A stretch of 64,000 nt of DNA, from the NCBI RefSeq assembly GCF_041821065.1, contig NZ_JBGUAX010000003.1:310001-374000 (forward strand), read 5' to 3'. The translations under genes were made by a program, and so were the position numbers. Shown here in pieces: positions 19,997 through 35,029 of this stretch. Every line of letters starts with the position of its first letter. The first letter of the stretch is position 1. The notes under the pieces were generated by a model. The model saw only the letters and a list, made by a program, of their open reading frames with translations, was not told the origin of the DNA and did not search any database. Source of the DNA: Egicoccus sp. AB-alg2. GTDB taxonomy: Bacteria > Actinomycetota > Nitriliruptoria > Nitriliruptorales > Nitriliruptoraceae.

Positions 19997-21451
19997 TCAG
20001 TGCGTCATCGCTTCTGCGGTCGGTGCTCCCGGCACCGCCTCGCGCGCGTCGTCCATGGCCTCTACCAGCGCGTCGACGTCGGCCTCCGTGGTGCGGTGGC
20101 TGATGACGCAGGCACGGACGGCCGGCCGGCCGTCCACCGCCACGTAGGAGACCCATGCGCGTCCGGTGTCGACGACACGATGCGCCAGGGAGCGGTGGTG
20201 TGCCTCGTCGTCCGGGCGAGCGGGGTCGACGGCGCACACGACCGGAAGCGGTGTGGGGTTGGCGAGTTGCCAGCCGGCGGCCGTGAGTTGTCGGCGCAGC
20301 CGATCGCCGAGTCGGACGTGTTCCTCGAGCAGGCGGGCATAACCGGTGCGACCGTGGACGGCCAGGGTGAGGAAGAGCTTGAGGCCGGCGGCTCGACGCG
20401 ACCACTGCATCGAGCTCGTGTACGGGTCACGTGCGTCGTCGGCCTTCGACGGCATGTACGACGTCGAGACCGCGAAGACGCGATCCAGCAACCGATGGTG
20501 GGGAGTGAGGAACATGCCGGCGCCCATCGGCACGGAAAGCCACTTGTGCGGATCGACCGTCACGCTGTCGGCGCGCGCGACCCCGGCGAGCAGTGGGGCG
20601 AGCACCGGCGAGACCGCCACCGCTCCGGCCCAGGCCGCGTCGACGTGCAGCCACAGGTCCTCCTCGTCGGCGACGCGACCGAGATCGACCAGCGGGTCGA
20701 TGACACCGGCACCGGTGGTACCGGCCGTGCCGACCACGAGGAACGGCAGGCAGCCGTCGCGACGGTCGGCTTCGATCATCTGCTGGAGGCGGTCGACGTC
20801 GAGCTTCAGGTCCTCGGTCACCGGCACCAGCCGGACGGCGTCACGGCCGATGCCGGTCTGTTGCGCGATCTTCAGCCAGGCGAGGTGGCTCTCCGTGGAC
20901 GCGTACATCACCGGCTGCGAGCCGAGGGCTCGAAGTCCGCGCTCGGCGACCTCCGGCGCGGCCTGTTGCAATGCCAGCAGCACCGCGGTGGCGTTGGCTT
21001 CGGCGCCGCCGCTGGTGAACGAGCCGACCGCCTCGGGCATACCGAGCCAGCGGCCGAAGGTGCGGACGACGTGGGCCTCGATCTCCACGGCGCCGGGGGC
21101 GTGGTTCCAGACGGCCAACTGCGGATTGAACCCGGCGGTGAGGATGTCCGCCGCGATGCCGGCGGCGAGCGGTGTCGGGTTGAACAGACCGAAGTGTCGA
21201 GGGTGCGAGGTGAGGACACCGTGTTCCTCGAGCAGGTCGGCGGCTCGCGCCACGACGAGGTCGACGTCGCCGGTCCCGGACTCGAGGTCGAACGTCGACA
21301 GTCGCCGCCGCAGGTCGCTGGGCGGTACCTGTCGCTCGACCGGGAGGTCGCCGACCTGTTCCCGGTGGGCGAGGATCCGTGACACGGCCGAGGTGAGCAG
21401 TCGCTGCTGGCTGGTCGCGTCGAGTTCGATGATGGTGGCTCCGTTGGTCAT
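19997..21451 (-). CDS. PLP-dependent (group II) amino-acid decarboxylase
   Basis: Protein of 484 residues of the aromatic-L-amino-acid/glutamate decarboxylase superfamily. The PLP lysine is Lys303 in DPHKW; Asp271 in HVDAAWAG contacts the pyridine nitrogen and His189 in STESH would stack on the ring. TSGGAEAN near 147 is the phosphate-binding segment. The family removes CO2 from amino acids such as tyrosine, tryptophan, DOPA or 2,4-diaminobutyrate; substrate cannot be told. It lies 204 bp downstream of the dehydrogenase on the same strand, so it may belong to the adjacent regulon. Confidence 0.87.
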   Translation of the reverse strand: MTNGATIIELDATSQQRLLTSAVSRILAHREQVGDLPVERQVPPSDLRRRLSTFDLESGTGDVDLVVARAADLLEEHGVLTSHPRHFGLFNPTPLAAGIAADILTAGFNPQLAVWNHAPGAVEIEAHVVRTFGRWLGMPEAVGSFTSGGAEANATAVLLALQQAAPEVAERGLRALGSQPVMYASTESHLAWLKIAQQTGIGRDAVRLVPVTEDLKLDVDRLQQMIEADRRDGCLPFLVVGTAGTTGAGVIDPLVDLGRVADEEDLWLHVDAAWAGAVAVSPVLAPLLAGVARADSVTVDPHKWLSVPMGAGMFLTPHHRLLDRVFAVSTSYMPSKADDARDPYTSSMQWSRRAAGLKLFLTLAVHGRTGYARLLEEHVRLGDRLRRQLTAAGWQLANPTPLPVVCAVDPARPDDEAHHRSLAHRVVDTGRAWVSYVAVDGRPAVRACVISHRTTEADVDALVEAMDDAREAVPGAPTAEAMTH

Positions 21452-21655
21452 GCGCGGGACGCTATGACGCGGGCCGACCCATCACTGGCAGTTTCGCGAC
21501 GTCACGTTCGGTGCAGCAGGCGGCCACCGTCACCGTGGAACCGTGGCGAGTAGTTGCCGACACTGGCCCCACTGCGGCGGTGGCCGTGAGGATGTCTGTC
21601 GCGACCGGCAGCGCGGCCGCCTGCCGAGGGGAGCTCGACAGGCGGCGGGCACGTC

Positions 21656-23245
21656 TCAGCCTCGAAGTCGTCCGTCGACACGGCGCGGCACGTTCAGGGG
21701 ATTTGCTTCCTTGAGTTCGTCGGGCAGCAAGGGGTCGGGGACGTCCTGGAACGTGACCGGTCGCAGGAAGCGGTCGATGGCCTTGGTGCCGACCGACGTG
21801 AAACGTGGGTCACTGGCGGCGGGGAAGGGGCCCCCGTGATGCTGTGCGGCGGTCACCGAGACGCCGGTCGGGAAGCCGTTGAACAGCACGCGTCCGGCGA
21901 TCTCCATCAGATCCGCCCGAAGGTCGACGAGATCCGCGACGTCCTCGGGCTCGGCCTGCAGGGTCACGGTGAGTTGCCCCTCGAGCGTCGGTACGACCTC
22001 GGGCAGGCGACCTTCGTCGTACCGAACGACGATCGACGCGGGGCCGAAGTGCTCCTCACGCAGGTGGTCGCTGGCTCGGTAGGCGTCCAGATCCACGCTG
22101 AACAACGACGGGGCGCACGTAACTGGCCCGTCGGTCGGTTGCGCGCCTCCATCGAGCAAGGTGGTCACCCCGTCGACCGCCCGGGTCGTTGCGAGTCGTC
22201 TGGACAGCGCCCCGAGAATGCCCTGGTTGAGGAGTACGCCTTCTCCTGTCGAACGCAACTGATCCGCGAGCGCGTCGACGAACCGGTCCCCGTCCTCGCC
22301 TGAGGGGACGAACACCAGGCCTGGCGAGGTGCAGAACTGACCTACGCCCATCTTCAGCGAGCTGGCGAGTTGCTCGGCGATCTCCCGGCCACGGACCGCC
22401 AGTGCCCGCGGCGTGACGAGGACGGGATTCAGACTGCCCATCTCGGCGTGCACGGGGATCGGATGCGGACGGCCGGCGGCCAGCTTCGCCAGCGCCTGTC
22501 CACCCGCCGGGGAGCCGGTGAAGCCAACGGAGCGGATCTCCTCGGACGTGACGAGCGCTTCGCCAACCTCGTGTCCGAGACCGTGGACAAGGCTGACGCT
22601 GCCGGCCGGCGCACCCACCAGCTCCACGGCGCGGAGCAACGCCGTCGCGGCCATTTCCGACGTCGCCGGGTGGCTCGGGTGCGCCTTGATCACCACCGGG
22701 CACCCGGCCGCCAAGGCAGAAGCCGTATCGCCGCCGGGCACGCTGAAGGCCAGTGGGAAGTTCGATGCACCGAACACGGCGACGGGCCCGACACCGATCC
22801 GCATGCGCCGCAGATCGGGCCGCGGCGGTGACAGCGTCGCGTCGGCATGGTCGATGACGACGTCGCGGTGCTCACCGGAGGTGACCAGATCCGCGAACAT
22901 GTCGAACTGTGCGCACGTGCGTGCCAGCTCACCCCGCAGTCGTGGCTCGATCGGCAGGCCCGTCTCATCGTGCGCCGTCTGCAGCAGCTGGCCATCGACG
23001 TCGAGGAGCTGCGCGGACATCTGGCGGAGAAGCTCGGCCAGCCTCGGGCCGTTCCACGTCCGCAACTCGCGGTACGCCTCGCCGGCTGCTCCGGTCGCAC
23101 GTGCGACCTCCAAAGGAGTCGCTTCGGTGAAGATCGGATCGAGCAGATCCCCCGTGGTCGGGTTGCGGGCCTGGAAAAGTTGGCTCCCCTCGGTCGAGTG
23201 CGTCCCGGCGATGAGATTCGCCCCGGTGATCTTGATCTCGCTCAT
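21656..23245 (-). CDS. NADP-dependent aldehyde dehydrogenase, ketoglutarate-semialdehyde type
   Basis: Protein of 529 residues. Catalytic residues are visible: Asn162 in GASNFP, Glu268 in HAEMGS and Cys305 in GQFCTSPG. The opening (ITGANLIAG, NPTTGDLL, EATPLEV) and the C-terminal GFPTGVSV and AAQHHGGPFPA blocks are typical of 2,5-dioxovalerate (alpha-ketoglutarate semialdehyde) dehydrogenases, which oxidise the semialdehyde to 2-oxoglutarate. It is divergent from the XRE regulator. A DHDPS-family lyase in the plus-strand operon fits, since such lyases yield 2,5-dioxovalerate in sugar-acid and hydroxyproline pathways. GGGAG precedes the ATG. Confidence 0.88.
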   Translation of the reverse strand: MSEIKITGANLIAGTHSTEGSQLFQARNPTTGDLLDPIFTEATPLEVARATGAAGEAYRELRTWNGPRLAELLRQMSAQLLDVDGQLLQTAHDETGLPIEPRLRGELARTCAQFDMFADLVTSGEHRDVVIDHADATLSPPRPDLRRMRIGVGPVAVFGASNFPLAFSVPGGDTASALAAGCPVVIKAHPSHPATSEMAATALLRAVELVGAPAGSVSLVHGLGHEVGEALVTSEEIRSVGFTGSPAGGQALAKLAAGRPHPIPVHAEMGSLNPVLVTPRALAVRGREIAEQLASSLKMGVGQFCTSPGLVFVPSGEDGDRFVDALADQLRSTGEGVLLNQGILGALSRRLATTRAVDGVTTLLDGGAQPTDGPVTCAPSLFSVDLDAYRASDHLREEHFGPASIVVRYDEGRLPEVVPTLEGQLTVTLQAEPEDVADLVDLRADLMEIAGRVLFNGFPTGVSVTAAQHHGGPFPAASDPRFTSVGTKAIDRFLRPVTFQDVPDPLLPDELKEANPLNVPRRVDGRLRG

Positions 23246-23450
23246 TCCTGCTCCCTGCAGCGGCCATCGATGTCGCCGTCGACTCGACGCCCGGGCCGGT
23301 GGCTGTCTGTCCGGCGCCTGCAGGCATCAACGGCGGGTGTTCGCACCCGATGGCTTACCGGAACGACGGCGATGTACGCCAGAGAGAATCGGTGTCTGCG
23401 GCAGTCCGCGCACCCGTAAGCCCGGTCCCGCAGCAAATTGAAGAAAACCC

Positions 23451-23478
23451 TTGACAGATGAAGCTCCGTCATTATCGT
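23451..23478 (+). promoter_or_regulatory. Promoter of the XRE-cupin regulator gene
   Basis: A consensus -35 TTGACA (23451-23456) and a -10-like TATCGT (23473-23478) are separated by 16 bp. The region is locally AT-richer than its surroundings and sits between divergent genes. Confidence 0.6.
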
Positions 23479-23497
23479 GAAGATGAAGCGACTTCAT
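23458..23497. promoter_or_regulatory. Paired 15-bp inverted repeats, likely regulator operators
   Basis: ATGAAGCTCCGTCAT at 23458-23472 fills the -35/-10 spacer. ATGAAGCGACTTCAT at 23483-23497 lies just past the -10 and is a perfect ATGAAG-CGA-CTTCAT inverted repeat; the first copy has one mismatch. Starts are 25 bp apart. Three CGTGAAG repeats (23476, 23501, 23511) overlap the same zone. Location argues for steric repression, most simply by the adjacent XRE-cupin protein. Confidence 0.55.
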
Positions 23498-23570
23498 GGA
23501 CGTGAAGAATCGTGAAGTCAGCGAAGCCAGGTCGGTTGCGGGAGTCGATCGACGACCAGGGAGAAGCCAC

Positions 23571-24230
23571 ATGGCGCGAAGGTCGGAAGAGCAGCCGGCG
23601 ACCGAGATCGCCGCAGCGAGCGAAGCGCACGGCGGTGCCGCCGTCAGCGACGGTCCGGAGATCCAGGCGGTCATGTCGGGCGTCGGCCGGCAGATCCGGT
23701 CACTGCGAAAAGTGCATGGACTGACTCTCGAGGAGTTGGCCAACCGATCGGGCGTCTCCGTCGGGCTGCTCAGCCAGGTCGAGCGCGGCATCGGCAATCC
23801 GGCGTTCAACTCGCTCGCCCGCATCGCCCATGCGTTGAACACTCCGATCGCCGCGTTGTTACACACCGGCCCCGACCAGTCGCCGGTCGTTCGCCGCCAC
23901 GAACGGCGCCGCCTCGACGTCCATGCCGCGGGCACCACCGGCATCGAAGCGATCCACGAACTGCTCACCCCGAGCTTGAACCAGCAGTTGGAAGTGATCG
24001 AGATTCAAGCGCCTCCTGGCTACTCGACGGAGAACGAGCCGTTCAGCCACGCCGGTGAGGAGTTCGGGATGGTGATCGAGGGCCGGCACGAAGTGAACGT
24101 CGGCGGCCAGAGCTACGTATTGGAGGCCGGCGACTCGATCTCGTATCTCAGCTCGATTCCGCATTGGTACCGCAACCCGGGCCCCGAGCCCGTGCGTGCG
24201 ATCTGGGTGATCACACCGCCAACGTTCTGA
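23571..24230 (+). CDS. XRE-family regulator with C-terminal cupin
   Basis: Protein of 219 residues: a flexible N terminus (1-35), an HTH_3/XRE DNA-binding domain (about 38-93; LTLEELANRSGVSVGLLSQVE) and a cupin_2 barrel (about 145-215; FSHAGEEFGMVIEG, LEAGDSISYLSSIPHWYRN). Cupins in this class usually sense a small ligand; the HAGEE...H pattern could bind a metal or acid ligand. I choose the ATG at 23571 with AGGGAGAA upstream over the ATG at 23496, which lies inside the presumed operator. It probably controls its own gene, the plus-strand operon and the divergent dehydrogenase. Confidence 0.88.
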   Translation: MARRSEEQPATEIAAASEAHGGAAVSDGPEIQAVMSGVGRQIRSLRKVHGLTLEELANRSGVSVGLLSQVERGIGNPAFNSLARIAHALNTPIAALLHTGPDQSPVVRRHERRRLDVHAAGTTGIEAIHELLTPSLNQQLEVIEIQAPPGYSTENEPFSHAGEEFGMVIEGRHEVNVGGQSYVLEAGDSISYLSSIPHWYRNPGPEPVRAIWVITPPTF

Positions 24231-24245
24231 CCTGCGAGGCAGGTC
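24229..24245 (+). terminator. Short hairpin directly after the regulator stop
   Basis: GACCTGC (24229-24235) and GCAGGTC (24239-24245) form a 7-bp stem with a GAG loop overlapping the stop codon of the regulator. It could attenuate readthrough into the transporter genes or be an operator. No U-run follows. Confidence 0.35.
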
Positions 24246-24336
24246 GGCGATACCGGTGGCGAGGCGAACGGCCCGTCGCCTGGCTGACGACGTCTCCATC
24301 ACTGGGAGGTGGTGGAGCAACTGCAAAGGGAGAGAG

Positions 24337-25443
24337 ATGGCAAGGTTCACGTTGCGACCTGCTCGCCGAACGGCACTTGGCGCGCTGGTGCTGAGCATGA
24401 CGATGCTGCTGGCCGCTTGCGGTGGCAGCCAGTCGCCGGAGGCGCCTGCTGCTGCCGGGGGAGACGAAACCTCCGGTAGCGCGGAAGGCGACGGTGCGGC
24501 TGCAACCGACGCAGGCGAGACCCGTGAACTGACGATGCAACTCGGGTGGATCGCCTCGAACAACCAGCTTGGCGAGATCGTCGCGCAGGCCGAGGGCTTC
24601 TACGCCGAGGAGGGCATCGAGCTGACGATCGAGCCGGGAGGCCCGAACGTCGACGGTGTCGCCCTGGTGGCGTCGGGGCAGGCGGACATCGGTCAGCTGT
24701 CGTCGAGCCCGTCGCTGATGCTGGCGGTGTCCGAGGGGATCCCGGTCAAGGCATTCGCCACGGGAGCGCAGGAACATCCCTACACGTATTTCTCGATGCC
24801 GGAGACGCCGCTCGACTCTGCCGAGGACCTGGCCGGCCTCCATGTCGGCACGCAGGCAACCGGAGAGATCCTGCTGGATGCGCTGCTGGCCGCGAACGAC
24901 ATGTCGCGGGACGACCTTGCGGACTTCACGGCCATCGGCGCCGAGATCACGCCCCTCCTCGCCGAGCAGGTCGACGTCTGGACCGGCTGGCTGACCAACA
25001 CTCAGCAGCTGAACCAGCTGCCGGAGGGACACCACCAGCTGCGCCTGTGGGATGCCGGTGTTCAGTTGTATGCCCTCCCCTACTACGCCCGCACGGACCT
25101 GATCGAGAACGACCCCGAGGTGCTCGAGGCCTTTCTTCGAGCGACGGCGAAGGGCTGGCAGTTCGCCCAGGACAACTTCGACGTCGCCATCGACCACCTG
25201 CTGGCGGCCTACCCGAACCTCGAGCGCGAAGCCGAGGAAGAGGGCGCGCAGGTGATCCTCGAGTACGTGATGGCCGAAACCGCCCTCGCGGACGGCTGGG
25301 GCGCGATGGACCCCGACGTCTGGCAGGCGCAGCTCGACCTGTGGGACGAACTGGGTCAGTTCCAGGGAGAGAAGCCGGCGCTGGAGGACATCGTCACGCT
25401 CGAGCTGCTGGACACCACCGCGGACGCTCGCCAGGTCCGCTGA
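24337..25443 (+). CDS. ABC transporter substrate-binding lipoprotein, NMT1/THI5-like
   Basis: Protein of 368 residues with a lipoprotein signal ending LLAAC (Cys28) and an Asp/Glu/Ala/Gly linker. The mature domain has the NMT1/THI5-like (SsuA/TauA) pattern: LTMQLGWIASNNQLGEIVAQAEGFYAEEGI is typical (only part quoted is needed: QLGWI, EGFYAEEGI), then GQADIGQLSSSPSLMLA. These proteins bind sulfonates, nitrate, hydroxymethylpyrimidine or other organic N compounds. The ATG at 24337 follows AAGGGAGAG. It opens the uptake part of the operon. Confidence 0.9.
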   Translation: MARFTLRPARRTALGALVLSMTMLLAACGGSQSPEAPAAAGGDETSGSAEGDGAAATDAGETRELTMQLGWIASNNQLGEIVAQAEGFYAEEGIELTIEPGGPNVDGVALVASGQADIGQLSSSPSLMLAVSEGIPVKAFATGAQEHPYTYFSMPETPLDSAEDLAGLHVGTQATGEILLDALLAANDMSRDDLADFTAIGAEITPLLAEQVDVWTGWLTNTQQLNQLPEGHHQLRLWDAGVQLYALPYYARTDLIENDPEVLEAFLRATAKGWQFAQDNFDVAIDHLLAAYPNLEREAEEEGAQVILEYVMAETALADGWGAMDPDVWQAQLDLWDELGQFQGEKPALEDIVTLELLDTTADARQVR

Positions 25444-25466
25444 GGCGACCGAGAGGGAGGAAGCCG

Positions 25467-26276
25467 ATGGCCGCCCCGATGATGGAACAGCAAAGCAATC
25501 CGACGCACACGACGGCCCCGGCCGTCTCGGTCAAGGACCTCTCGGTCCGCTTCGGGACGGAGTCCGGCGTCGTCACCGCGATCGAAGGCCTCGACCTGAC
25601 CCTGGAGCAGGGCAGCTTCCTGTCGATCCTGGGACCGTCGGGATGCGGCAAGTCGACCTTTCTCCGCGTGGTCGCTGACCTCGTCCCTCCCGCGGAGGGA
25701 CACGTCGAGGTGCTCGGCCACAGCCCGCAACGGTCGCGCCGCGAGCGCAACCTGGGCTTCGTCTTCCAGGACGCCGGCCTGCTTGCGTGGCGCACGGCGC
25801 TGGAAAACGTTCGTATCCCGCTGGAGGTGGGCAAGGGTCCGGTCGGGGACCACGCCCGCGACCCGCACGAGCTGCTGGCGTTGGTCGGGCTCGGGGACCG
25901 GGCCAACGCCTATCCACACGAACTGTCGGGCGGGATGAGGCAGCGTGTCTCGATCGCCCGAGCGCTCGTCACTCAACCGCGCATCCTGCTGATGGACGAG
26001 CCGTTCGGCGCGCTCGACGAGATCACGCGCGACGCCCTCAACGACGAACTCCTTCGCATCTGGCAAGCCACCGGTACGACCGTGCTGTTCGTCACCCACA
26101 GCATCCCGGAATCCGTGTACCTGGCACAGAAGGTGCTGGTGTTGCGCGCCAACCCGGGACGTGTCGCCGAGCTCGTCGACATCGATCTGCCGTACCCACG
26201 TGAGCTGTCGATGCGCGAAACCCCGGAATTCGTCGACCACACCGCCAAGTTGCGGCAGATCCTGGAGACCTGCTGA
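25467..26276 (+). CDS. ABC transporter ATPase, SsuB/TauB/NrtD type
   Basis: Protein of 269 residues. Walker A GPSGCGKST (56-64), signature LSGGMRQRVS, Walker B RILLMDEPFGALDE and a switch His in VTHSIPE are all intact, as is the Q loop FVFQDAGLLAW. The sequence matches ATPases of nitrate/sulfonate/taurine-type importers. GGGAGG lies 6 nt before the ATG. Its stop overlaps the permease start by one base (TGATG), so the two are translationally coupled. Confidence 0.93.
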   Translation: MAAPMMEQQSNPTHTTAPAVSVKDLSVRFGTESGVVTAIEGLDLTLEQGSFLSILGPSGCGKSTFLRVVADLVPPAEGHVEVLGHSPQRSRRERNLGFVFQDAGLLAWRTALENVRIPLEVGKGPVGDHARDPHELLALVGLGDRANAYPHELSGGMRQRVSIARALVTQPRILLMDEPFGALDEITRDALNDELLRIWQATGTTVLFVTHSIPESVYLAQKVLVLRANPGRVAELVDIDLPYPRELSMRETPEFVDHTAKLRQILETC

Positions 26277-27112
26277 TGACCGCGAACCCGAAGCGACTGA
26301 CCGGGCTCGACACCAGCGGCAAGGAGGTCCCCCTGTCGCTGGGCATCAAGAAGACCAACCCCGTCGTCGCGGCGCTCACCAGCGTGGCCGGCGCGGTCGG
26401 GCTGGTCGTCCTGTGGCAACTCGTCGTCTGGGTCTTCGACATTCCCCTCTATGTCGTTCCGGGGCCAGCCGACGTGGCCGCCTCGCTGGTCAACGACTTC
26501 GACCTGCTGCTGAGAAATGTCTGGCCGACTGCGCTGGAGTCGGGTGCCGGGTTCCTGATCGGAAACGTGGTGGCCATCCTGCTGGCCATCGTCTTCGTCC
26601 ACAACGCGACCCTGGAGCGTTCGCTCTTCCCGGTCGCCGTGGTCATCCGGACCGTCCCGATCGTCGCCATCGCACCCGTGCTGGTGCTGATGCTCGGCAA
26701 CGGCTATGCCCCGAAGATCGCCATCGCCGCACTGATCTCGTTCTTCCCGACACTGGTCAACATGGTCCGGGGCTTTCACAGCGCCGACCCGCAGGCGATC
26801 GAACTCTTCCGCGTGCTTTCGGCCAGCCAGTGGGAGATCTTCTGGAAGGTCCGTGCCTACAGCTCACTGCCCTTCCTCTTCTCCTCGCTCAAGATCGCCG
26901 CGACCTCGTCGGTCATCGGCGCCATCGTGGCCGAGTGGATCGGTGCCAACCAGGGTCTCGGGGCACTGATCATCGACGCGACCTTCAACTTCCGCACACC
27001 ACTGCTGTACTCCACGATGGTGTTCGCCTCACTGCTGGCGCTCGGGTTCTTCTTCCTGATCGGCCTGATCGAGCGGCGCGTCGTGACCTGGGAGGTCGAG
27101 TCCTCCCCCTGA
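26276..27112 (+). CDS. ABC transporter permease, SsuC/TauC type
   Basis: Protein of 278 residues with about six membrane segments. The cytoplasmic coupling loop is recognisable in RVLSASQWEIFWKVRAYSSLP (EAA-like loop; central part SASQWEIFWKV). A start overlapping the ATPase stop by one base and the adjacent binding protein make a complete one-permease importer that would work as a homodimer. The transported molecule is presumably the pathway substrate; no specificity can be read from the permease. Confidence 0.92.
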   Translation: MTANPKRLTGLDTSGKEVPLSLGIKKTNPVVAALTSVAGAVGLVVLWQLVVWVFDIPLYVVPGPADVAASLVNDFDLLLRNVWPTALESGAGFLIGNVVAILLAIVFVHNATLERSLFPVAVVIRTVPIVAIAPVLVLMLGNGYAPKIAIAALISFFPTLVNMVRGFHSADPQAIELFRVLSASQWEIFWKVRAYSSLPFLFSSLKIAATSSVIGAIVAEWIGANQGLGALIIDATFNFRTPLLYSTMVFASLLALGFFFLIGLIERRVVTWEVESSP

Positions 27113-27155
27113 TCGGCTGCGACCGATTGAGAAACGTTTCGAAAAGGAGTGAACC

Positions 27156-28520
27156 ATGAGGATCAGTGACGGCACGGTGCGCCTTGCCGAGCGCAACGCA
27201 AAGGTGGTGTCCGAGACCGACGTCGTCGTCGTCGGCGGTGGCCCCGCCGGAACCACGGCCGCCGTCTCCGCGGCGCGCAACGGCGCCCGGGTCACACTCG
27301 TCGAGCGCTACGCAGCCCTGGGCGGGATGGCCGCCGGCGGATTCGTGCTCGTCCTCGACGACATGGTCAACGGGCAGGAGATCACGGTCCGCGGTCTCGT
27401 GGACGAGTTCGTGGAGAGGATGGCCGCGAAGGGGCTGGCCGCGTACCCGTCCGAGGCCGAACGTGGCCTGGACGAGGCCGCGATCCGCAAGTGGACGCGT
27501 TGGGGCGCGTTCGACATCCACAGCAATGGCCGCCCCAAGCCGATCGTGTACGCGGTCGCGTTCGATCCCGAAGGGTGGAAGGAGGTGTCGAACGAGTTGG
27601 TGCAGGAGAGCAACGTCGAGCTGCGCCTGCACAGCTGGTTCTCCGAGACGCTCGTCGAGGACGGCACGGTCCGTGGCGTGGTGGTGCAGACCAAGGAGGG
27701 CCCGCAGGCCATCCTCGCCGACGTGGTGATCGACGCTTCCGGTGATGCCGACGTCGCCTGGTCGGCGGGCGCACCGCTGATCGAGGACAGCTACATCGTC
27801 ACTCCGGTGTTCCGCCTCGGCAATGTCGACGTCGACGCCGCCGAACGGTTCGAGTGGGAGGAGCCGGAGAAGGCCCGTGAACTGAACCGCAAGGCCAAGC
27901 GCATCCTGGGCGGCTCGTGGGACCTGTGGTGGTTGCGCACGCCCCTGGAGGGGATCGTGTGGTGCAACTGTCCCCACATGCGGGGTTTCTCGGCGACCGA
28001 CCCGGTCGCGTTGACCAACGCGCAGTTCGAGGGGCGACGCCACATCAATGACCTCGTCGACTTCGCCCGCGAGAACCTGCCCGGCTTCGAGAACTGTCAT
28101 GTCGTCGACGTGGCCCCCCAGATCGGCGTGCGCCAGTCCCGGTTGATCCAAGGCGAGTACGTCGTGACCAAGGAGGACATCGTCCGACGCCACCACTTCG
28201 CCGACTCCGTGGCGCGCGGCCGCGACTACTACACGCCCTACCGGGCCATGGTCCCGCAGCACGTCGACCAACTGCTGCTCGCCGGGCGCCACTACTCGGC
28301 GACCCCCGACGCTCAGCGCATGTCGCGGGAGATTCCGCCATGCATGTCGATGGGCGAGGCCGCCGGTGTGGCGGCAGCGACGGCGCTGGATCGCGGTGTA
28401 CGCGTCCGCGACGTTGACGTCGCGGAGGTGCAGCGGCGATTGCGCGCCCAAGGCGCCGACCCCGGTGACGTTCCGTCGGCCAACGCGACCATCCTCGAGG
28501 CGGCGGAGGTGCCGGCATGA
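27156..28520 (+). CDS. FAD-dependent oxidoreductase (PF12831-like)
   Basis: Protein of 454 residues. The N-terminal dinucleotide fold is clear (VVVVGGGPAGTTAA, about 23-36, with ERYAALGGMAAGG following), and a C-terminal FAD segment reads LLLAGRHYSATPDAQ then PPCMSMGEAAGVAAA. This layout fits the FAD_oxidored (PF12831) group rather than the DadA-like D-amino-acid dehydrogenases. It likely oxidises or dehydrogenates the imported compound or an intermediate. AAAGGAG precedes the ATG, and the stop overlaps the next start by 4 bp (ATGA). Confidence 0.85.
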   Translation: MRISDGTVRLAERNAKVVSETDVVVVGGGPAGTTAAVSAARNGARVTLVERYAALGGMAAGGFVLVLDDMVNGQEITVRGLVDEFVERMAAKGLAAYPSEAERGLDEAAIRKWTRWGAFDIHSNGRPKPIVYAVAFDPEGWKEVSNELVQESNVELRLHSWFSETLVEDGTVRGVVVQTKEGPQAILADVVIDASGDADVAWSAGAPLIEDSYIVTPVFRLGNVDVDAAERFEWEEPEKARELNRKAKRILGGSWDLWWLRTPLEGIVWCNCPHMRGFSATDPVALTNAQFEGRRHINDLVDFARENLPGFENCHVVDVAPQIGVRQSRLIQGEYVVTKEDIVRRHHFADSVARGRDYYTPYRAMVPQHVDQLLLAGRHYSATPDAQRMSREIPPCMSMGEAAGVAAATALDRGVRVRDVDVAEVQRRLRAQGADPGDVPSANATILEAAEVPA

Positions 28521-29713
28521 ACGGGAACGCAGACGTGCAGCCGCTGTCCGGCATCCGGGTGCTCGACTTCACCCAGGTGATGCTCGGCCCCTCGGCCACG
28601 CAGTTGCTCTCGGACCACGGTGCCGAGGTCATCAAGGTTGAACGGCCTGGAGCCGGTGACCTCTCGCGCTCGGCGATGGGCGAGGCTGCGGGCTTGGACA
28701 ACCCCGTGTTCGCGAGTCTCAACCGCAACAAGCGCTCGATCACGGTCGACCTGCGGTCACCCGAGGGTGGGCGAATCATCCGTGACCTCGTCGCCAACTG
28801 CGACGTGCTGGTGCACAACTTCCGACCCGGCGCGATGGAGCGCCGCGGCCTCGGCTACGAGGAGTGCCGCGCCATCAACCCGCGTTTGATCTACGCCGTC
28901 GGTTCGGGGTTCGGGCCAACCGGCCCGTACCAGCACAAGGGTGGTCAGGATGCGCTCGCCCAGGCGCTGACCGGCGTCATGGAACGTCGAGCGGACCAGT
29001 CCATCCCGCTGTCCGTCTACGCCACCACCTTCGCCGACTACTCCGCCGGCATGCACCTCGTGCAGGGCGTACTGCTCGCGCTGCGTGCACGCGACCTGAC
29101 CGGCGAGGGGCAGCGGGTGGACGCCTCCCTGTTCAACGCGCTGCTGTCGATGCAGATGCAGGAGGCCACCGCCCACCTGATGACCGGACAGATCCTGAAC
29201 TGGGCCGCCTATCCGCTCTCGGGTGTCTTCCACGCCACGGACGGTGCCTTCGTCCTGATCGGCGCCTTCAAGCAGAACCCCCTGCGCGACATCTGCGTCG
29301 CCCTCGGCATCGAGGACCTGTCGCAGGAGGAGCGATACGCCACCTTCGATGGTCAGATGGCCCACCGCGAGGAGTTGCAGGCGGTCTTCACACGCGAGTT
29401 CGCGAAGAACCGCGTGGAGTACTGGCTCGAACGCCTGGAGGACCAGGACCTGTTGTGCGCGAAGGTCCAGTCGCTGGGCGAGGCACTGGAAGACCCGCAG
29501 ACCAAGCACAACGGCATGGTCGTCGACATCCCTCGAGGCGACGAAGCTCCCGTCCGGACCATCGCGTCCCCGATCACGCTGTCCTCCACCCCGATGCGTG
29601 AACCGTCGCCGCCACCCAAGCTCGGGCAGCACACCGCCGAGGTGCTCACCGACGTGCTCGGCATGGACCAGGCCGACATCGACCGACTGGCAGCAGAAGG
29701 GGTGCTGGGATGA
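28517..29713 (+). CDS. CaiB/BaiF-type (class III) CoA-transferase
   Basis: Protein of 398 residues. Hallmarks of class III CoA-transferases: GIRVLDFTQVMLGP, DHGAEVIKVERPG, SLNRNKRSITVDLR, NFRPGAMERRGLGY, and the nucleophilic Asp174 in FADYSAG followed by GEGQRVDASL. These enzymes move CoA between acids, here presumably activating a carboxylic acid for the hydratase encoded next. The start overlaps the previous stop by 4 bp, and the end overlaps the hydratase start by 4 bp. Confidence 0.92.
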   Translation: MNGNADVQPLSGIRVLDFTQVMLGPSATQLLSDHGAEVIKVERPGAGDLSRSAMGEAAGLDNPVFASLNRNKRSITVDLRSPEGGRIIRDLVANCDVLVHNFRPGAMERRGLGYEECRAINPRLIYAVGSGFGPTGPYQHKGGQDALAQALTGVMERRADQSIPLSVYATTFADYSAGMHLVQGVLLALRARDLTGEGQRVDASLFNALLSMQMQEATAHLMTGQILNWAAYPLSGVFHATDGAFVLIGAFKQNPLRDICVALGIEDLSQEERYATFDGQMAHREELQAVFTREFAKNRVEYWLERLEDQDLLCAKVQSLGEALEDPQTKHNGMVVDIPRGDEAPVRTIASPITLSSTPMREPSPPPKLGQHTAEVLTDVLGMDQADIDRLAAEGVLG

Positions 29714-30516
29714 ACGACGACACTGGGCCGACCGACGAAGTCCGCCTGGAGCGTGAGGGCCACCTTGCTCGGGTCACGATCGATCGGCCGAAGGTCCTGA
29801 ATGCGGTCGACCAGAAGACGCTTCGGCGCCTGCAGGACATCTGGGACGAACTCGAGACCGACGACGACGTGCGGCTGGTGATCCTCACCGGCGCAGGCGA
29901 GCGGTCGTTCTGCGTCGGAGCGGACATGTCCGCTGAGGACGGCGACGGACCCGACGGCTTGCGTTATTGGGCCGAGGAACGTGCCGGCGGGTTCGGTGGT
30001 CTGTCGCTGCGCGACACCCTCGACGTCCCGGTGATCGCCCGTGTCAACGGCTACGCATTGGGCGGCGGGTTCGAGATGATGTTGGGCGCCGACCTGGTCG
30101 TTGCGGCCGACCATGCGCAGTTCGCGCTGCCAGAACCCCGAGTCGGCCGTCTCCCGGCGGATGGTGGCATGCCGCTGCTACCGCGGCGGATCCCACGCGT
30201 CTTTGCCATGGAGATGCTGCTCACGGGTCGACGCATCAGCGCGGAGGAAGCGCTGCGGTTCGGCCTGGTCAACCGGGTGGTGCCGATGTCCGACCTGGAC
30301 GATGCCGTCGACGAGTTGGCCCAGCAGGTGCTGGCCTGTGCCCCGCTGTCCGTGAAGGCCATCAAGCAGCTCGTCCAGCGGACGGGACACCTCACACCCC
30401 AGGAAGCGCAAGGCATCCGCCTGCCGACCGTGCTCGCGGCCTTCGACTCCGAGGATGGGCAGGAAGGCCCCCGCGCGTTCCGCGAAAAGCGGGTTCCGGT
30501 CTGGAAGGGTCGTTGA
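29710..30516 (+). CDS. Enoyl-CoA hydratase/isomerase family, CaiD-like
   Basis: Protein of 268 residues of the crotonase fold. Both catalytic Glu positions are kept: Glu122 in GGGFEMMLGAD and Glu142 in ALPEPRVG. The segment ALPEPRVG...PLLPRRIPRVFAMEMLLTGRR and the C-terminal AFREKRVPVWKGR closely resemble carnitinyl-CoA dehydratase CaiD as I remember it. Together with the CaiB-like transferase this suggests hydration or dehydration of a CoA thioester bearing a polar or charged group. A carnitine role is not claimed, since no CaiA, CaiC, CaiE or CaiT homologues are present. Confidence 0.88.
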   Translation: MNDDTGPTDEVRLEREGHLARVTIDRPKVLNAVDQKTLRRLQDIWDELETDDDVRLVILTGAGERSFCVGADMSAEDGDGPDGLRYWAEERAGGFGGLSLRDTLDVPVIARVNGYALGGGFEMMLGADLVVAADHAQFALPEPRVGRLPADGGMPLLPRRIPRVFAMEMLLTGRRISAEEALRFGLVNRVVPMSDLDDAVDELAQQVLACAPLSVKAIKQLVQRTGHLTPQEAQGIRLPTVLAAFDSEDGQEGPRAFREKRVPVWKGR

Positions 30517-31409
30517 TGGCGGCACAGTTCGAACCACTCCAGCGGGGGGTGTGGGGCATCCTCCCCACCCCGTTCCGCGAGGATCTCGAGGTCGACCTCG
30601 ACTCGGTCGGTACGGGCGTCGACTTCCTGCGCGAGCGCGGTGCCACGGGCGTGGTCGCCCTGGGCGTGTTCGGTGAGGCCGCGCGTCTGTCCACCGCGGA
30701 GAAGGAGCAGGTCCTGGCCGCGGTCGTCGAGGCGGCGGGGGAGCTTCCGGTCGTCGCCGGCATCGACGCCCTCGCAACTGCCCCGGCAACGGAGTTGGCA
30801 GCCCGTCTCGTGACCCAGGCACCCGGTCTGCGGGCTGTCATGACCAAGGCGCCATCGGCCGACGCCGAGGTGACGACCGAACACCTTCGGCGCGTCTCGG
30901 CGGCGGCCGGCGTCGGGGTCATCGCGCAGGACTACCCCGCCCAGTCCGGCGTCCACATCTCCGCGTCGGCGCTGCGTCAGGCCGTGGACGATTCGGAGGT
31001 GGCCGTCGCGGTGAAGGCGGAGGCGGTACCGAGTGCTGTCGCCGTTGCCCACCTCGCACCCCATACCAACGTGCCGGTGTTCGGGGGCCTCGGGGGAGTG
31101 GGCCTGTTGGACGAACTCGACGCTGGCGCGGCCGGCGCGATGACGGGCTTCTCGTTCCCCGAGGCGCTCAAGGCCTGCGTCGACGCGTTCGACCGTGACG
31201 GCTTCCCGGCTGCGCGCGAGGTCTATGCCCCTTGGCTGCCGATCGCAAACTTCGAGGCCCAACTCGGTATCGCGCTGGCGATCCGGAAGGAGATCCTGCG
31301 CCGGCGTGGGGCGATGCGGTGCGCGGTCGTGCGGCCGCCGGCGGCACCGCTGCCAGCTGTGGTGGCGGCCCGCATCGAGCAGCACCTGGACACGGTCCCG
31401 GCGATCTGA
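30516..31409 (+). CDS. DHDPS/NAL-family class I aldolase or dehydratase
   Basis: Protein of 297 residues of the DapA/NanA superfamily. The phosphate/carboxylate loop reads GVFGEAARLS, the relay Tyr is Tyr140 in QDYPAQ, and the Schiff-base Lys is Lys167 in AVKAEAVPS. The motif differs from true DHDPS (GxKEATG), so lysine biosynthesis is unlikely. Family members include hydroxypyrroline-carboxylate deaminase and deoxyglucarate dehydratase, both yielding 2-oxoglutarate semialdehyde, which the divergent dehydrogenase would oxidise. The start overlaps the hydratase stop by one base. Confidence 0.87.
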   Translation: MAAQFEPLQRGVWGILPTPFREDLEVDLDSVGTGVDFLRERGATGVVALGVFGEAARLSTAEKEQVLAAVVEAAGELPVVAGIDALATAPATELAARLVTQAPGLRAVMTKAPSADAEVTTEHLRRVSAAAGVGVIAQDYPAQSGVHISASALRQAVDDSEVAVAVKAEAVPSAVAVAHLAPHTNVPVFGGLGGVGLLDELDAGAAGAMTGFSFPEALKACVDAFDRDGFPAAREVYAPWLPIANFEAQLGIALAIRKEILRRRGAMRCAVVRPPAAPLPAVVAARIEQHLDTVPAI

Positions 31410-31426
31410 CTCCTCGGAGGTCTGGT

Positions 31427-31855
31427 GTGAGCAGCTGCGACGACCCGGTGCCTTCAGTGGACAGCGAGCTTCTGGCCGCAGCAAGTGCGGCCGTCGAGGC
31501 CGTGTACCGGCCCGGTTGGCACTTCGTCGGCGCCGCCGTCCGCGGGGCGTCCGGTGCGGTCTACACGGGCGTGAATTTGCAGGCCTACGTGTCGCGTATC
31601 GCGGTCTGCGCAGAACCCATCGCGCTCGGTCAGAGCGTCATGGCCGCCGATGGCCCCATCATGCGCGCCGTGGCGGTCTACAAGCCGGACGCACAGCTGC
31701 CGCCCGTCGTCTGCTCGCCGTGCGGCATGTGCCGCGAGATGCTGCATGACTACGGGGGTGAGGCGGTCGAGGTCGTCGTGCCCGGCGATGCCGGGCCCGA
31801 GGTCATGACGGGACGAGACCTGCTCCCGGTGAAGTACGTGCGAGACAGCCGGTGA
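31427..31855 (+). CDS. Cytidine/blasticidin-S deaminase-like protein
   Basis: Protein of 142 residues with the CDA fold. Zinc ligands and catalytic Glu are intact: CAE (Cys61, Glu63) and PCGMC (Cys99, Cys102). The substrate loop GVNLQAYVSRIAVCAEPIALG corresponds to the NASYG...CAERxA region of cytidine deaminases but differs enough that the base recognised may not be cytosine. GGAGG lies 6 nt before the GTG. It overlaps the ADA-like gene by 4 bp, so two different deaminases are made from one mRNA. Confidence 0.88.
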   Translation: MSSCDDPVPSVDSELLAAASAAVEAVYRPGWHFVGAAVRGASGAVYTGVNLQAYVSRIAVCAEPIALGQSVMAADGPIMRAVAVYKPDAQLPPVVCSPCGMCREMLHDYGGEAVEVVVPGDAGPEVMTGRDLLPVKYVRDSR

Positions 31856-32832
31856 GTGCCAACGGTGACGGGGGCTCCGAGCGGCTGCCCAAGGCGCATC
31901 TGCACCTGCATCTCGAGGGTGCAGCTCGCCCGGCGACGTTGGTCGAGTACGCGCGCAGGCGCGACGTTCCGGCCGCGAGTTTGGAGGGTTTCACCGACCT
32001 GGCCGCGTTCGTGGTCGCCTACGAGACGGCGCGCGATCTGATCGGCTCCCTCGACGAACTACAGCGGGTGGCGCGTGAGGTCGCCGAGGACGCCCTCGAA
32101 CAGGGCTGCGTCTGGATCGAGGTGCACTTCGCGCCGTTCAGTTACGGCGGTCGACTCGGCCGGGAGGAAGCACTCCTGGAGGCAGTGTTGGCCGGCCTGG
32201 CCGAACCACAGGGGGACGCCACCGGGGCTGCCGTGGTGCTGGCCGTCAACCGTGCGCACGGCACAGACCTGGGACGGCGCACCCTCGTACTCGCCGAACG
32301 CTATGCCGGTCGTGGTGTGGTCGGACTCGGCTTGGTCGGGGACGAGCGCCACCCCGCTCGTCCGTACGCGCCGCTGTTCGCCCGGGCACGGGAAGCTGGG
32401 CTCCTCGCCGTCCCTCACGCCGGTGAGACGCAGGGGCCGCACGCGGTACTCGAGGCGCTGCAGTTGCTACGCGCGGATCGCATCGGCCACGGCATCACCG
32501 CGACTCGTGACCCGGGGCTGCTCGAGCAGCTCGCTGACACCCAGCGATGCCTCGATGTCTGCCCGACCAGCAACCTGCGGCTCGGTGTGGCCGAGGACTG
32601 GAGCGCACACCCGATCCATCGGCTGGTGGCGGCCGGAGTCGCCGTCAGCCTCAACAGCGACGACCCGACTTTCTTCGGCAGCGACGTCGCCCAGGAGTAC
32701 GCGACCGCCGCAGCACACGGACTCCCGGTGGCGGCGATCGCTGCGCACTCCCTGAGGCACAGCGCGGCGCCTGATCATGTGCGCGGCCCGGCACTTCGCG
32801 CTCTCGCGTCGCAGACGACGCCAGCCACATGA
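31852..32832 (+). CDS. Adenosine-deaminase-family amidohydrolase
   Basis: Protein of 326 residues. Metal and catalytic motifs of the ADA family are present: KAHLHLHLEG (His18, His20), PHAGE (zinc His and catalytic Glu), HGITA, CPTSNLRLG and SLNSDDP (zinc Asp). The 'structural' loop between strands 1 and 2 is shorter than in adenosine deaminases, so the substrate may be another amino-heterocycle such as an adenine or pterin-like ring. The GTG start overlaps the CDA stop (GTGA). The following MFS start overlaps its own stop by 4 bp. Confidence 0.88.
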   Translation: MSANGDGGSERLPKAHLHLHLEGAARPATLVEYARRRDVPAASLEGFTDLAAFVVAYETARDLIGSLDELQRVAREVAEDALEQGCVWIEVHFAPFSYGGRLGREEALLEAVLAGLAEPQGDATGAAVVLAVNRAHGTDLGRRTLVLAERYAGRGVVGLGLVGDERHPARPYAPLFARAREAGLLAVPHAGETQGPHAVLEALQLLRADRIGHGITATRDPGLLEQLADTQRCLDVCPTSNLRLGVAEDWSAHPIHRLVAAGVAVSLNSDDPTFFGSDVAQEYATAAAHGLPVAAIAAHSLRHSAAPDHVRGPALRALASQTTPAT

Positions 32833-34229
32833 GCGGTGACGGCTCACCCGGGCGCCGCACGGTCGGCGCCTACGCCCTGGTGACGGCGCTGAGCGTGCTC
32901 GCGTCCTCGGCCGTCTCCGTGGTGATCCCACAGTTGGCTCGCGACCTCGAGCTCGACACGTCCGCCGCCGGTTGGGTGCTGGCGTCGTTTTCGGTCACGT
33001 TTCCCATCGGCACGGTGCTGTTCGGGCAGCTCGGCGACCGTCTCGGTCCGCGTCGCGCCTGGGTGTGGGGGGCCGTGCTCTTCGTGGGGGGCGGGACCAT
33101 GGCGGCCGTCTCACCGTCGTTCGCCCCGATCGTGGTCGGCCGCCTCGTGCAGGGCGTCGGTGCGGGGGCCATCCCGGTGCTCTCCCTGGCAAGACTTGCA
33201 CGTGGTGGTGCTCGTCAGCGCGCGAGTCGGGTCGGCTTCCTCACGGCCGTCGTGTCGATCCACTCCGGGGCTGGCCCGCTGCTCGGCGGGGGCCTCGCCG
33301 GCGCCGTGCACTGGCGAGCCACCTTGGCTCTGCCGCTGCTCACCGTTCTCGTCGCCGTACCGATCTGGCGCGACCTGCCAGACACGCCGCAACCGGGCAG
33401 CGACGTGGACTGGCCCGGTGCGGCGTTCACCTTCGCTGCGGTTGCAGCCCCGCTCCTGCTTCTTCGCCAGCTCGCGATCGGCTCGTCTGTCGGCGTGTGG
33501 CCGCTGGTCGTCGTCTCCATGGCCGCCATCGCGGGCCTGGTCGCCCGCGTCCGTCGGCGCCCGAGCGGATTCCTACGCCGCGACCTGATCACGGACCCGT
33601 CGCTCGTCGGTGCCGGCGTTGCCGCGATGTGCTTGCTGGCGATCTACCTCGGTGGCATGTTCGCCGTGCCGCTCCTGCTCACCGATGCGCTCGGCTGGGG
33701 GCCGTTCCAGTTGGGGCTGGCCGTCCTGCCCGCGGCCGCTGTCGGCACGGTCGCCGCACGTCTCACCGGCCGGCACGTGCGGCCAGCCCGTTGGTCACTG
33801 GTCGCCCACGCCGCAGTGCTCGCCGGTCTCGGCGGCCTCGTGGTGATCACGTTCGGCGGGACGCCGCTGGCCTGGGTTGCTGGCTTGTGCCTGTTGGCGA
33901 CCGCCAGCATGAGCGCACAAGTGGTCCACACCACCTCGGTCCTACGCGCTCCCGGCGAGCCTCAGGCCAACACGGCCATCGGCACCTTCCAACTGTTTCT
34001 GTTCTCCGGCGGCGCCCTCGGGCCGATCGTCGTTGGCGCCGTCGCCGAACGGACGACGGTTCCCACAGGAGTGGCGAGTTCCTCGGTGCTCCTCGCCGGT
34101 GGAATCGTGCTGCCGTTGGTCCTCCGCCGTCGCGGGCGTCGGCATCATCGCCCGCGTTCACCGCTGAAGGTCGACCTCTCGATGCCACCCGACGAAGACC
34201 TACGGGCCAGCCCAGGTGGGCAGGCATAG
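32829..34229 (+). CDS. MFS transporter (DHA2-like)
   Basis: Protein of 466 residues with about 13-14 membrane segments. Motif A is recognisable as GQLGDRLGPRRAW after the second segment, and GAIPVLSLARL follows in the fourth-helix region. The polar C-terminal tail (about 430-466) is cytosolic. DHA2 members are mostly drug/proton antiporters, so it may export a product or a toxic intermediate, but uptake cannot be excluded. It is translationally coupled to the ADA-like gene. Confidence 0.88.
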   Translation: MSGDGSPGRRTVGAYALVTALSVLASSAVSVVIPQLARDLELDTSAAGWVLASFSVTFPIGTVLFGQLGDRLGPRRAWVWGAVLFVGGGTMAAVSPSFAPIVVGRLVQGVGAGAIPVLSLARLARGGARQRASRVGFLTAVVSIHSGAGPLLGGGLAGAVHWRATLALPLLTVLVAVPIWRDLPDTPQPGSDVDWPGAAFTFAAVAAPLLLLRQLAIGSSVGVWPLVVVSMAAIAGLVARVRRRPSGFLRRDLITDPSLVGAGVAAMCLLAIYLGGMFAVPLLLTDALGWGPFQLGLAVLPAAAVGTVAARLTGRHVRPARWSLVAHAAVLAGLGGLVVITFGGTPLAWVAGLCLLATASMSAQVVHTTSVLRAPGEPQANTAIGTFQLFLFSGGALGPIVVGAVAERTTVPTGVASSSVLLAGGIVLPLVLRRRGRRHHRPRSPLKVDLSMPPDEDLRASPGGQA

Positions 34230-34243
34230 ACACAGGAGAATCC

Positions 34244-35029
34244 ATGGATCTCGGCATCGCAGGACGAACCAGTCTCGTATTGGGCGCCGGCGGCGGACTC
34301 GGCAGTGCCATCGCCGAATCGCTCGCGGGGGAGGGCGTTGCCGTCGCCGCCGCGGACATCGACGGAGGCGCGGCAAGAAGCACCGCCGATCGGTGCGCGT
34401 CGCGAGGGGTCTCGACGACGGCGTTGGCATGGGATCTCGCCGACATCGACGCCATCGACGGCCACGTTGCCGCCGTCGAAGCCGACCTCGGGCCCGTGGA
34501 CATCCTCGTGAACATGACCGGTGGGCCCCCACCGACGCCGGTGTCGGGACAGGACGCCGCCAGTTGGCGCCGCCACTTCGAGCAGATGGTGCTGTCGGTC
34601 ATCTCCGTGACGGACCGCGTGCTTCCGTCCATGCGAGCGCGTAGCTGGGGGCGTGTCATCACGTCGACGTCGTCTGGGGTCGTCGCCCCCATCCCGAATC
34701 TCGGTCTGTCCAACGCCTTACGTTCGTCGCTGGTCGGTTGGAACAAGACCCTCGCCGCCGAGGTGGCAGCTGACGGGGTCACCTGCAACATCGTCCTGCC
34801 GGGCCGGATCGCCACGAAGCGCATAACGTTCCTCGACGAGAAGAAGGCCGAACGCGAAGGCCGACCGGTTGCCGATGTGGTCGCCGAGTCGACCGCGTCG
34901 ATCCCGGTCGGCCGCTACGGCGACCCGGCCGAGTACGGCGCCGTGGCGGCCTTCCTCGCCTCGAAGCAGGCATCCTTCGTCAATGGTTCGATCATCCGAG
35001 TCGACGGCGGGATGATTCCGAGCGTGTGA
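34244..35029 (+). CDS. Short-chain dehydrogenase-like protein lacking the YxxxK pair
   Basis: Protein of 261 residues. The cofactor motif LGAGGGLG (13-20) is TGxxxGxG-like but lacks the Thr. The NMTGGPP segment and the Ser of TSTSSG (about 143-144) are present. Where YxxSK is expected the sequence reads LGLSN, so Tyr is Leu153 and Lys is Asn157. A subgroup of 'BKR-like' SDRs is known with this imperfection. It may bind rather than reduce, or use other residues. AGGAGAA precedes the ATG. It is the last gene of the plus-strand run. Confidence 0.82.
   Translation: MDLGIAGRTSLVLGAGGGLGSAIAESLAGEGVAVAAADIDGGAARSTADRCASRGVSTTALAWDLADIDAIDGHVAAVEADLGPVDILVNMTGGPPPTPVSGQDAASWRRHFEQMVLSVISVTDRVLPSMRARSWGRVITSTSSGVVAPIPNLGLSNALRSSLVGWNKTLAAEVAADGVTCNIVLPGRIATKRITFLDEKKAEREGRPVADVVAESTASIPVGRYGDPAEYGAVAAFLASKQASFVNGSIIRVDGGMIPSV

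Follow-up and report, generated by a model that had tools for sequence, protein, structure and literature searches.

A conserved FAD oxidoreductase, CoA transferase and crotonase core in Egicoccus sp. AB-alg2 and its possible link to amino-heterocycle breakdown

Introduction

What might a bacterium degrade with genes for an NMT1/THI5-like importer, an FAD oxidoreductase, CoA-thioester enzymes, a DapA-family lyase and two deaminases? The question is raised by a locus of Egicoccus sp. AB-alg2 that lies within a 64,000-nucleotide stretch of DNA, the whole of which was analysed and is referred to here as the window. The initial annotation had found no described pathway to match the locus, and a search of open-licence PMC text likewise showed none for this gene combination. 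In this article, the conservation of the locus, the likely roles of its enzymes and the pathways that could account for it are considered.

Organisation of the locus

The genes and families named in the initial annotation are present: all named genes have intact reading frames, and Pfam upholds their families. From the binding protein to the short-chain dehydrogenase (SDR), 11 genes follow one another on the plus strand (24337-35029). Six of their ten junctions are overlaps of 1-4 bp, in line with the earlier remark that most junctions overlap, and the other four are gaps of 14-43 bp, the DapA start being taken as the ATG at 30516. Overlaps join the cytidine-deaminase-like (CDA-like), adenosine-deaminase-family (ADA) and MFS genes to one another, and also the crotonase gene to the DapA gene. 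The proposal of a single catabolic unit is supported; it comprises about 14 genes, and the regulator and the three-gene ABC importer also belong to it.

The PLP-dependent decarboxylase (Pyridoxal_deC by Pfam; 19997..21451, minus strand) had been counted as part of the regulon. This assignment was not supported: the protein, used as a tblastn query, showed no match in any of the 18 related loci described below, and its membership of the unit is unproven. Its best NCBIfam model is DABA decarboxylase, at 160.5 of 900 bits.

A conserved core of three enzymes

The centre of the unit is formed by an FAD-dependent oxidoreductase (FAD_oxidored, PF12831; 27156..28520, plus strand), a class III CoA transferase (CoA_transf_3, CaiB-type; 28517..29713, plus strand) and a crotonase (ECH_1; 29710..30516, plus strand), all assigned by Pfam. 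When the FAD protein was compared by tblastn with 72,556 PLSDB plasmid records, 61 records matched and 60 were listed; among those listed, identity was 57.7-63.3% in 59 and 32.5% in the remaining one, with nothing between. The CaiB protein matched 73 records, and among the 60 listed, 59 share accessions with the FAD matches (at least 50.8% identity), while one stands at 43.5%. In 59/59 records compared, the CaiB match lies directly downstream of the FAD match on the same strand. These records are mostly Rhizobiaceae, and the counts are therefore not independent.

Eighteen of the 59 loci (L005, L006, L008, L009, L049-L055 and L057-L063) were examined by tblastn with window and reference proteins. 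L007 and L056 were left out as near-duplicates of L005 and L049, L010 and L011 as stretches that showed no FAD match, and L004 as a fragment. The crotonase gene comes next after CaiB in all 18, and identity to the window is 58-63% for FAD, 51-60% for CaiB and 54-64% for the crotonase. Moreover, the distance matrices of the three proteins correlate at 0.93-0.96 (18 loci including the window, L006 excluded); none of 2000 permutations was as high for any pair, and shared host descent inflates these values. A ferredoxin gene adjoins the cluster in 16/18 loci, the exceptions being L006 and L009. The window holds no ferredoxin gene, and the genome has two cluster-type ferredoxin matches, both about 74-75 kb to the left of the window start.

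The core enzymes retain the residues expected of their families. The CoA transferase scores 373 bits against PF02515 (gathering score 23.3), and the Asp of its KGGQD motif, which we take to be the catalytic residue of class III CoA transferases, is kept in five of five aligned sequences. In alignment, the window crotonase carries both Glu positions of hydratases, presumably those with catalytic roles. The co-occurrence beyond the Egicoccus genome that the initial annotation had proposed to look for exists for the core, both for the FAD-CaiB pair (59/59) and for the crotonase (18/18). In effect, a conserved catabolic core recurs in soil, plant-associated and sea bacteria.

Some copies may be interrupted. 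The CaiB of Arthrobacter ERGS1:01 (L006 10983-12154) matches in two pieces with no gene listed there, and the same is seen for the crotonases of R. qingshengii VT6 (L005 12122-12896) and A. salinitolerans (L058 13402-14177); these are possible frameshifts or sequence errors.

Importer and regulator

Upstream of the core lie genes for an NMT1/THI5-like substrate-binding protein (24337..25443), an ABC transporter ATPase (25467..26276) and a permease (26276..27112), all on the plus strand and assigned by Pfam. The same three-gene importer precedes the FAD gene in 14/14 proteobacterial loci among the 18 examined, with identities to the window of 45-49% for the binding protein, 58-66% for the ATPase and 50-59% for the permease. 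The four actinobacterial loci (Rhodococcus, two Arthrobacter and Streptomyces mirabilis) have before FAD an MFS gene, 55-76% alike, and L006 also carries a less similar ABC ATPase (44%) and permease (30%) farther upstream. The MFS transporter of the window (32829..34229, plus strand; Pfam) is weakly similar to those of the two Arthrobacter loci, at 27-30% over partial length. The HTH_3 and Cupin_2 regulator (23571..24230, plus strand; the ATG at 23571 is preferred over that at 23496), which the initial annotation had left unmentioned, is 43-52% identical to the regulator of actinobacterial loci.

The nearest ligand-named PDB relative of the binding protein is the thiamine-pyrimidine binding protein 3ix1 (E 8.6e-15). 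It is also weakly similar to THI5 and matches SsuA_fam at 47 bits against a cut-off of 163.5. This relationship to a thiamine-pyrimidine binder would suit a pathway that degrades HMP, the thiamine pyrimidine, or another 4-aminopyrimidine like it, and a 4-aminopyrimidine substructure is indeed common to the substrates on which CDA- and ADA-type enzymes act. Such a pathway is nevertheless unlikely, as the carbon skeleton of HMP gives no C5 semialdehyde. At the gathering threshold, Rfam showed no TPP riboswitch: it returned tRNA alone for the window and nothing for five related loci. This is a weak point against such a pathway because breakdown genes need no riboswitch.

A related importer adjoins a VOC-family gene on plasmid pRL9 of R. 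johnstonii 3841 (L064 8875-11485). Its binding protein, about 46-48% identical to the cluster one of pRltTA1B, occurs in many Rhizobium plasmids. FAD, CaiB and crotonase genes are absent within 9 kb of the pRL9 copy, and a DapA-family gene lies about 7 kb from it.

The exit route: DapA, SDR and aldehyde dehydrogenase

The DHDPS/NAL-family lyase of the window (DapA; 30516..31409, plus strand; Pfam and alignment) carries the motif QDYP and appears to be of a dehydratase type. A DapA-family gene of any type occurs in 14/18 loci, with none seen in the stretches read of the other four. The window or ACO-34A type is found in nine loci. In eight of these, a nearby SDR matches that of the window or of ACO-34A at 43% or more; in the ninth, L053, the stretch read stops at the DapA gene. 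The SDR of the window (34244..35029, plus strand; Pfam) is 63% identical to those of Rhizobium ACO-34A and two Ensifer loci. The other DapA type occurs in six loci (L049, L052, L055, L057, L059 and L062), of which L062 has both types and is the sole one with a window-like SDR.

The two types differ at characteristic motifs. Seven window-type proteins were aligned, from the window, five cluster loci and one Labrenzia locus without an FAD gene beside it. All seven have QDYP or QDFP, whereas four of four of the other type have YNFP with GTTGE/GSTGE and KDSSG. The Schiff-base Lys is present in all seven window-type proteins (VAVK/IAVK/MLK/CLK), where the MAFFT alignment places it one column away from the Lys of the aldolase type. 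The DapA proteins of Rhizobium leguminosarum, Ensifer canadensis, Paracoccus and Roseibium are of this aldolase type by alignment. According to the review PMC9795676, L-2-keto-3-deoxyarabonate dehydratase performs no aldol cleavage, and its Gln143 occupies the position of the aldolase Tyr. By this rule, the window type is probably a dehydratase or another beta-eliminating lyase, and the other type probably an ordinary aldolase. The window DapA matches that dehydratase (7c0c/3fkk) at E 1e-22; its top structural match, 3dz1 (3e-35), is named merely dihydrodipicolinate synthase, and its score for the best NCBIfam model is 73 of 206 bits.

The aldehyde dehydrogenase (ALDH; 21656..23245, minus strand), a relative of 1eyy and 3v4c, its closest solved structures, is a proposed alpha-ketoglutarate semialdehyde (alpha-KGSA) dehydrogenase. 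An ALDH is present in 10/18 loci, with none seen in the stretches read of eight. That of the window scores 79.5 bits for NF042993 (cut-off 770) and 100.4 for NF052305 (cut-off 750), and reaches about 100 bits for both the 2,5-dioxovalerate (cut-off 750) and succinylglutamate-semialdehyde (cut-off 514) models. The earlier naming of a 2,5-dioxovalerate-type dehydrogenase is therefore upheld for the family but not, by these scores, for the type. It is 40-42% identical to the ALDHs of S. mirabilis and Rhizobium ACO-34A, with which it shares another branch to which the models give no clear name; the ACO-34A protein scores best for HpaE, at 109 bits. Four further ALDHs, scored from the Ensifer, Paracoccus, Roseibium and Rhodococcus loci, do best with the two alpha-KGSA/2,5-dioxovalerate models, at 437-549 bits (next best 327-431), still below the cut-offs of 770 and 750. 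In Rhizobium sp. ACO-34A (L050 3058-8832), rut uracil-degradation genes lie divergently beside the cluster, and a window-type ALDH stands at the far end of these rut genes.

That one core is accompanied by differing DapA and ALDH branches suggests a single chemical step carried out in more than one way. From this we infer that the shared step is the passage of a C5 2-oxo acid to central metabolism. An end at alpha-KGSA, on the way to the 2-oxoglutarate proposed earlier, would fit both the dehydratase-type DapA and the ALDHs of several relatives.

A DHDPS-family enzyme together with an alpha-KGSA dehydrogenase is common to hydroxyproline and pentose-type pathways, as described in PMC4113996, which raises the possibility of a pathway for hydroxyproline, hydroxyproline-betaine or L-arabinose. 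In Ensifer PDNC004, a gene annotated as L-arabinonate dehydratase and another member of the DapA family also lie within 10 kb of the cluster. Such an assignment is highly improbable, however: neither a CoA transferase nor a crotonase nor a hydrolytic deaminase is required in these pathways, and Pfam found no proline racemase/epimerase, D-amino-acid oxidase or sugar-acid dehydratase over cut-off among the 14 window genes, although the DAO model on the FAD protein (27.3) fell just under its cut-off of 27.9.

Deaminases

A deaminase-family gene occurs in 11/18 loci, drawn from three families: a TRZ/ATZ amidohydrolase in eight loci, a dCMP/CDA-superfamily protein in two and an ADA in one (S. mirabilis). 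None was seen within the stretches read of the other seven. ADA and TRZ/ATZ enzymes are remotely related within a single superfamily, and the CDA fold is separate. In the four rhizobial TRZ/ATZ amidohydrolases aligned, the HxH, HxxE, H and D residues of deaminases, which we take to be functional, are conserved. The dCMP/CDA-superfamily proteins of Chelatococcus and Roseibium are 47% identical to each other and have no significant match to the window CDA.

The initial annotation had proposed to look for co-occurrence of the two deaminases with CaiB, the crotonase and the DapA-family protein. CaiB and the crotonase do recur together, and the deaminase pair is not conserved: the CDA-like gene (31427..31855, plus strand; CAE and PCxxC; Pfam, alignment) has no match in 17 other loci, and the ADA (A_deaminase; 31852..32832, plus strand; Pfam) is matched in one of the 17, by an S. 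mirabilis copy (48%) that stands beside DapA and SDR. Among plasmid records, the CDA-like protein has three matches at E<=1e-10 and the ADA six at E<=1e-30, with S. mirabilis best. The S. mirabilis ADA differs from that of the window at two motifs, having HGGE for HAGE and SSDCP for NSDDP.

The ADA of the window passes TIGR01430 (240.6 against a cut-off of 216.55), and has LEG and NSDDP like 3ou8, unlike the LDG and NTDDP of 6n91. The CDA-like protein falls below the NCBIfam cut-offs (PRK06848, 120.7 of 131; TIGR01354, 57.9 of 113.65) and has GVNLQAY where 1mq0, presumably human CDA, has GCNIENA, so that Gln replaces the Glu of NIEN. The NIEN position of CDA and the LDG/NTDDP positions of ADA are assumed to bear on ribose binding. 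Judged from these departures, the two proteins may act on a free amino-heterocycle and not on a nucleoside.

The same motifs bear on a nucleoside-type substrate. In such a route, the FAD enzyme would make a 5' carboxylate and CaiB a 5'-oyl-CoA; the crotonase would then eliminate the 3' hydroxyl, the ring would open, the base would be freed, and the C5 remainder would pass to 2-oxoglutarate. On chemical reasoning, this yields a C5 2-oxo acid without a nucleosidase. It would also accommodate the two deaminase types of the window and the dehydratase-type DapA, which otherwise, according to PMC9795676, acts on a 2-keto-3-deoxy-pentonate. The rut genes for uracil degradation next to the Rhizobium ACO-34A cluster speak for it as well, but were seen in that one locus alone, and neither the Gln for the NIEN Glu nor the LEG/NSDDP of the ADA is like a classical nucleoside deaminase. 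Moreover, we know of no NMT1-type nucleoside importer. A nucleoside substrate is accordingly improbable. Very unlikely, too, is its most far-reaching form, a CoA-dependent nucleoside-like breakdown, spread by plasmids between actinobacteria and proteobacteria, in which the sugar carbon is held as a thioester, elimination occurs across the ring and the base is lost without nucleosidase or phosphorylase. A molybdenum enzyme beside the Rhizobium 11515TR copy was considered as a sign of purine oxidation; it scores best as a PaoC-type aldehyde oxidoreductase (552 of 1180 bits) and was therefore dropped as nucleoside support.

Origin and distribution

At E<=1e-100, the FAD gene was found in 1/396 genomes of a draw from the phylum (four candidates scored per genome, among the rows listed), and that one is Egicoccus itself; horizontal acquisition of the cluster is therefore likely. 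G+C content is 0.659-0.678 in the four 2-kb steps of 22001-30000 vs 0.689-0.770 in the other steps of the window. A search of viral contigs with the FAD alignment gave no relative. A tRNA-Met gene lies at 14205-14282 of the window, and 20 bp of its 3' half recur about 1 kb downstream (15221-15240), resembling a small integration remnant.

The locus also looks like a mosaic. Its CaiB is nearer to proteobacterial copies (55-60% vs 51-54% actinobacterial) and its SDR to three rhizobial ones (63% vs 43-46%), its DapA is nearer to actinobacterial copies (47-53% vs 30-34%), the regulator and ADA match in actinobacterial loci alone, and the binding protein in proteobacterial loci alone. This mosaic, with a close ABC importer in proteobacterial loci alone, speaks for an alternative explanation, in which an ordinary organic or aromatic acid is degraded by the importer, FAD enzyme, CaiB and crotonase, and the genes for the deaminases, DapA, SDR and ALDH lie next to them but belong to other pathways. 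The absence of deaminase, DapA and ALDH genes, each from some loci, speaks for it as well. On the other hand, overlaps tie the CDA-like, ADA and MFS genes together and the crotonase to DapA, an ADA gene next to those for DapA and SDR is seen again in S. mirabilis (48%), and deaminase-family genes recur in 11/18 loci, which leaves the explanation possible but doubtful.

DapA relatives also exist apart from the core. A search of a collection of genome contigs with the window DapA gave one fragment at 39%, and homologues of 51-54% occur in four other genomes of the family (Nitriliruptoraceae). Within 4-20 kb around these four, generic ABC/SDR matches (about 32% or less) alone were found, and the neighbours of three gave no clue. 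On a plasmid of Labrenzia sp. THAF187b (L011 6443-11673), genes for a DapA and an SDR, 35% and 51% identical to those of the window, stand next to genes for two TRZ/ATZ amidohydrolases, a dipeptide-type ABC importer and a member of the Asp/Glu racemase family. Here the DapA-SDR module is put to use in a second setting linked to deaminases.

A proposed pathway

The gene content, the conservation of the core, the parallel divergence of its three enzymes and their expected catalytic residues are observed features of this locus. We infer from them every reaction, the reaction order and the substrate class. The reading that we favour, plausible though short of probable, is a horizontally spread unit for import of an amino-heterocycle, its deamination, CoA-thioester chemistry and passage of a C5 unit via alpha-KGSA to 2-oxoglutarate. 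The ABC importer would bring in a small amino-heterocyclic compound, from which a hydrolytic deaminase would strip the exocyclic amine; since deaminase families differ between bacteria, the exact amino compound may differ as well. Oxidation or reduction of the compound would fall to the FAD oxidoreductase together with a ferredoxin, whose gene adjoins the cluster in most relatives and lies elsewhere in the Egicoccus genome; the CoA transferase would activate the compound as a CoA thioester, and the crotonase would hydrate or dehydrate this thioester. The core reactions would release a five-carbon 2-oxo acid. In Egicoccus, this acid could be converted to alpha-KGSA by the SDR and by DapA acting as a dehydratase, and ALDH would oxidise the alpha-KGSA to 2-oxoglutarate.

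Several observations weigh against this amino-heterocycle pathway. No deaminase was seen in the stretches read of 7/18 loci, no DapA in 4/18 and no ALDH in 8/18; window-type ALDHs do not single out alpha-KGSA; and the aldolase-type DapA proteins of relatives need not lead to it. The low NCBIfam score of the window DapA, the SsuA_fam match of the binding protein and the two altered motifs of the S. mirabilis ADA also count against it. As for the route first outlined, the unit, its co-occurrence and the alpha-KGSA end were upheld, and the deaminase pair and the PLP decarboxylase were not.

Alphaproteobacteria, betaproteobacteria and actinobacteria all carry the core at about 60% identity, which suggests that its substrate is a common environmental compound. 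Naming this compound would reveal a further nutrient in soil, rhizosphere and sea, and would give a function to a distinct FAD oxidoreductase group, separated by the step from 57.7% to 32.5% in the 60 plasmid rows listed.

Comparison with known systems

Real and conserved, the unit reads as a variant of pathways ending at alpha-KGSA, for which no description was found in open PMC text. It shares features with three known systems. Like the carnitine CaiB/CaiD system, it has a class III CoA transferase adjoining a crotonase. However, both enzymes score below the cut-offs, at 109 of 413 bits (L-carnitine CoA-transferase) and 228 of 500 (crotonobetainyl-CoA hydratase), and the window genes include neither an acyl-CoA dehydrogenase nor a ligase. 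The "CaiD-like" hydratase of the initial annotation is therefore to be read as crotonase-like and no more. Thiamine-pyrimidine ABC importers, presumably of the ThiXYZ type, combine an NMT1/THI5 binding protein with an ATPase and a permease as the window does, but the window binding protein is 45-49% identical to a group that stands before FAD in 14/14 proteobacterial loci.

The closest parallels to the exit route are the non-phosphorylative pentose (Weimberg/Dahms-type) and hydroxyproline pathways, which share with the window a DHDPS-family lyase and a semialdehyde dehydrogenase. The Tyr-to-Gln change of L-2-keto-3-deoxyarabonate dehydratase is also present in the window DapA. Compared with these pathways, the window has no identified sugar dehydrogenase or proline epimerase, and it adds deaminases, a CoA transferase, a crotonase, an FAD enzyme and an NMT1-type importer.
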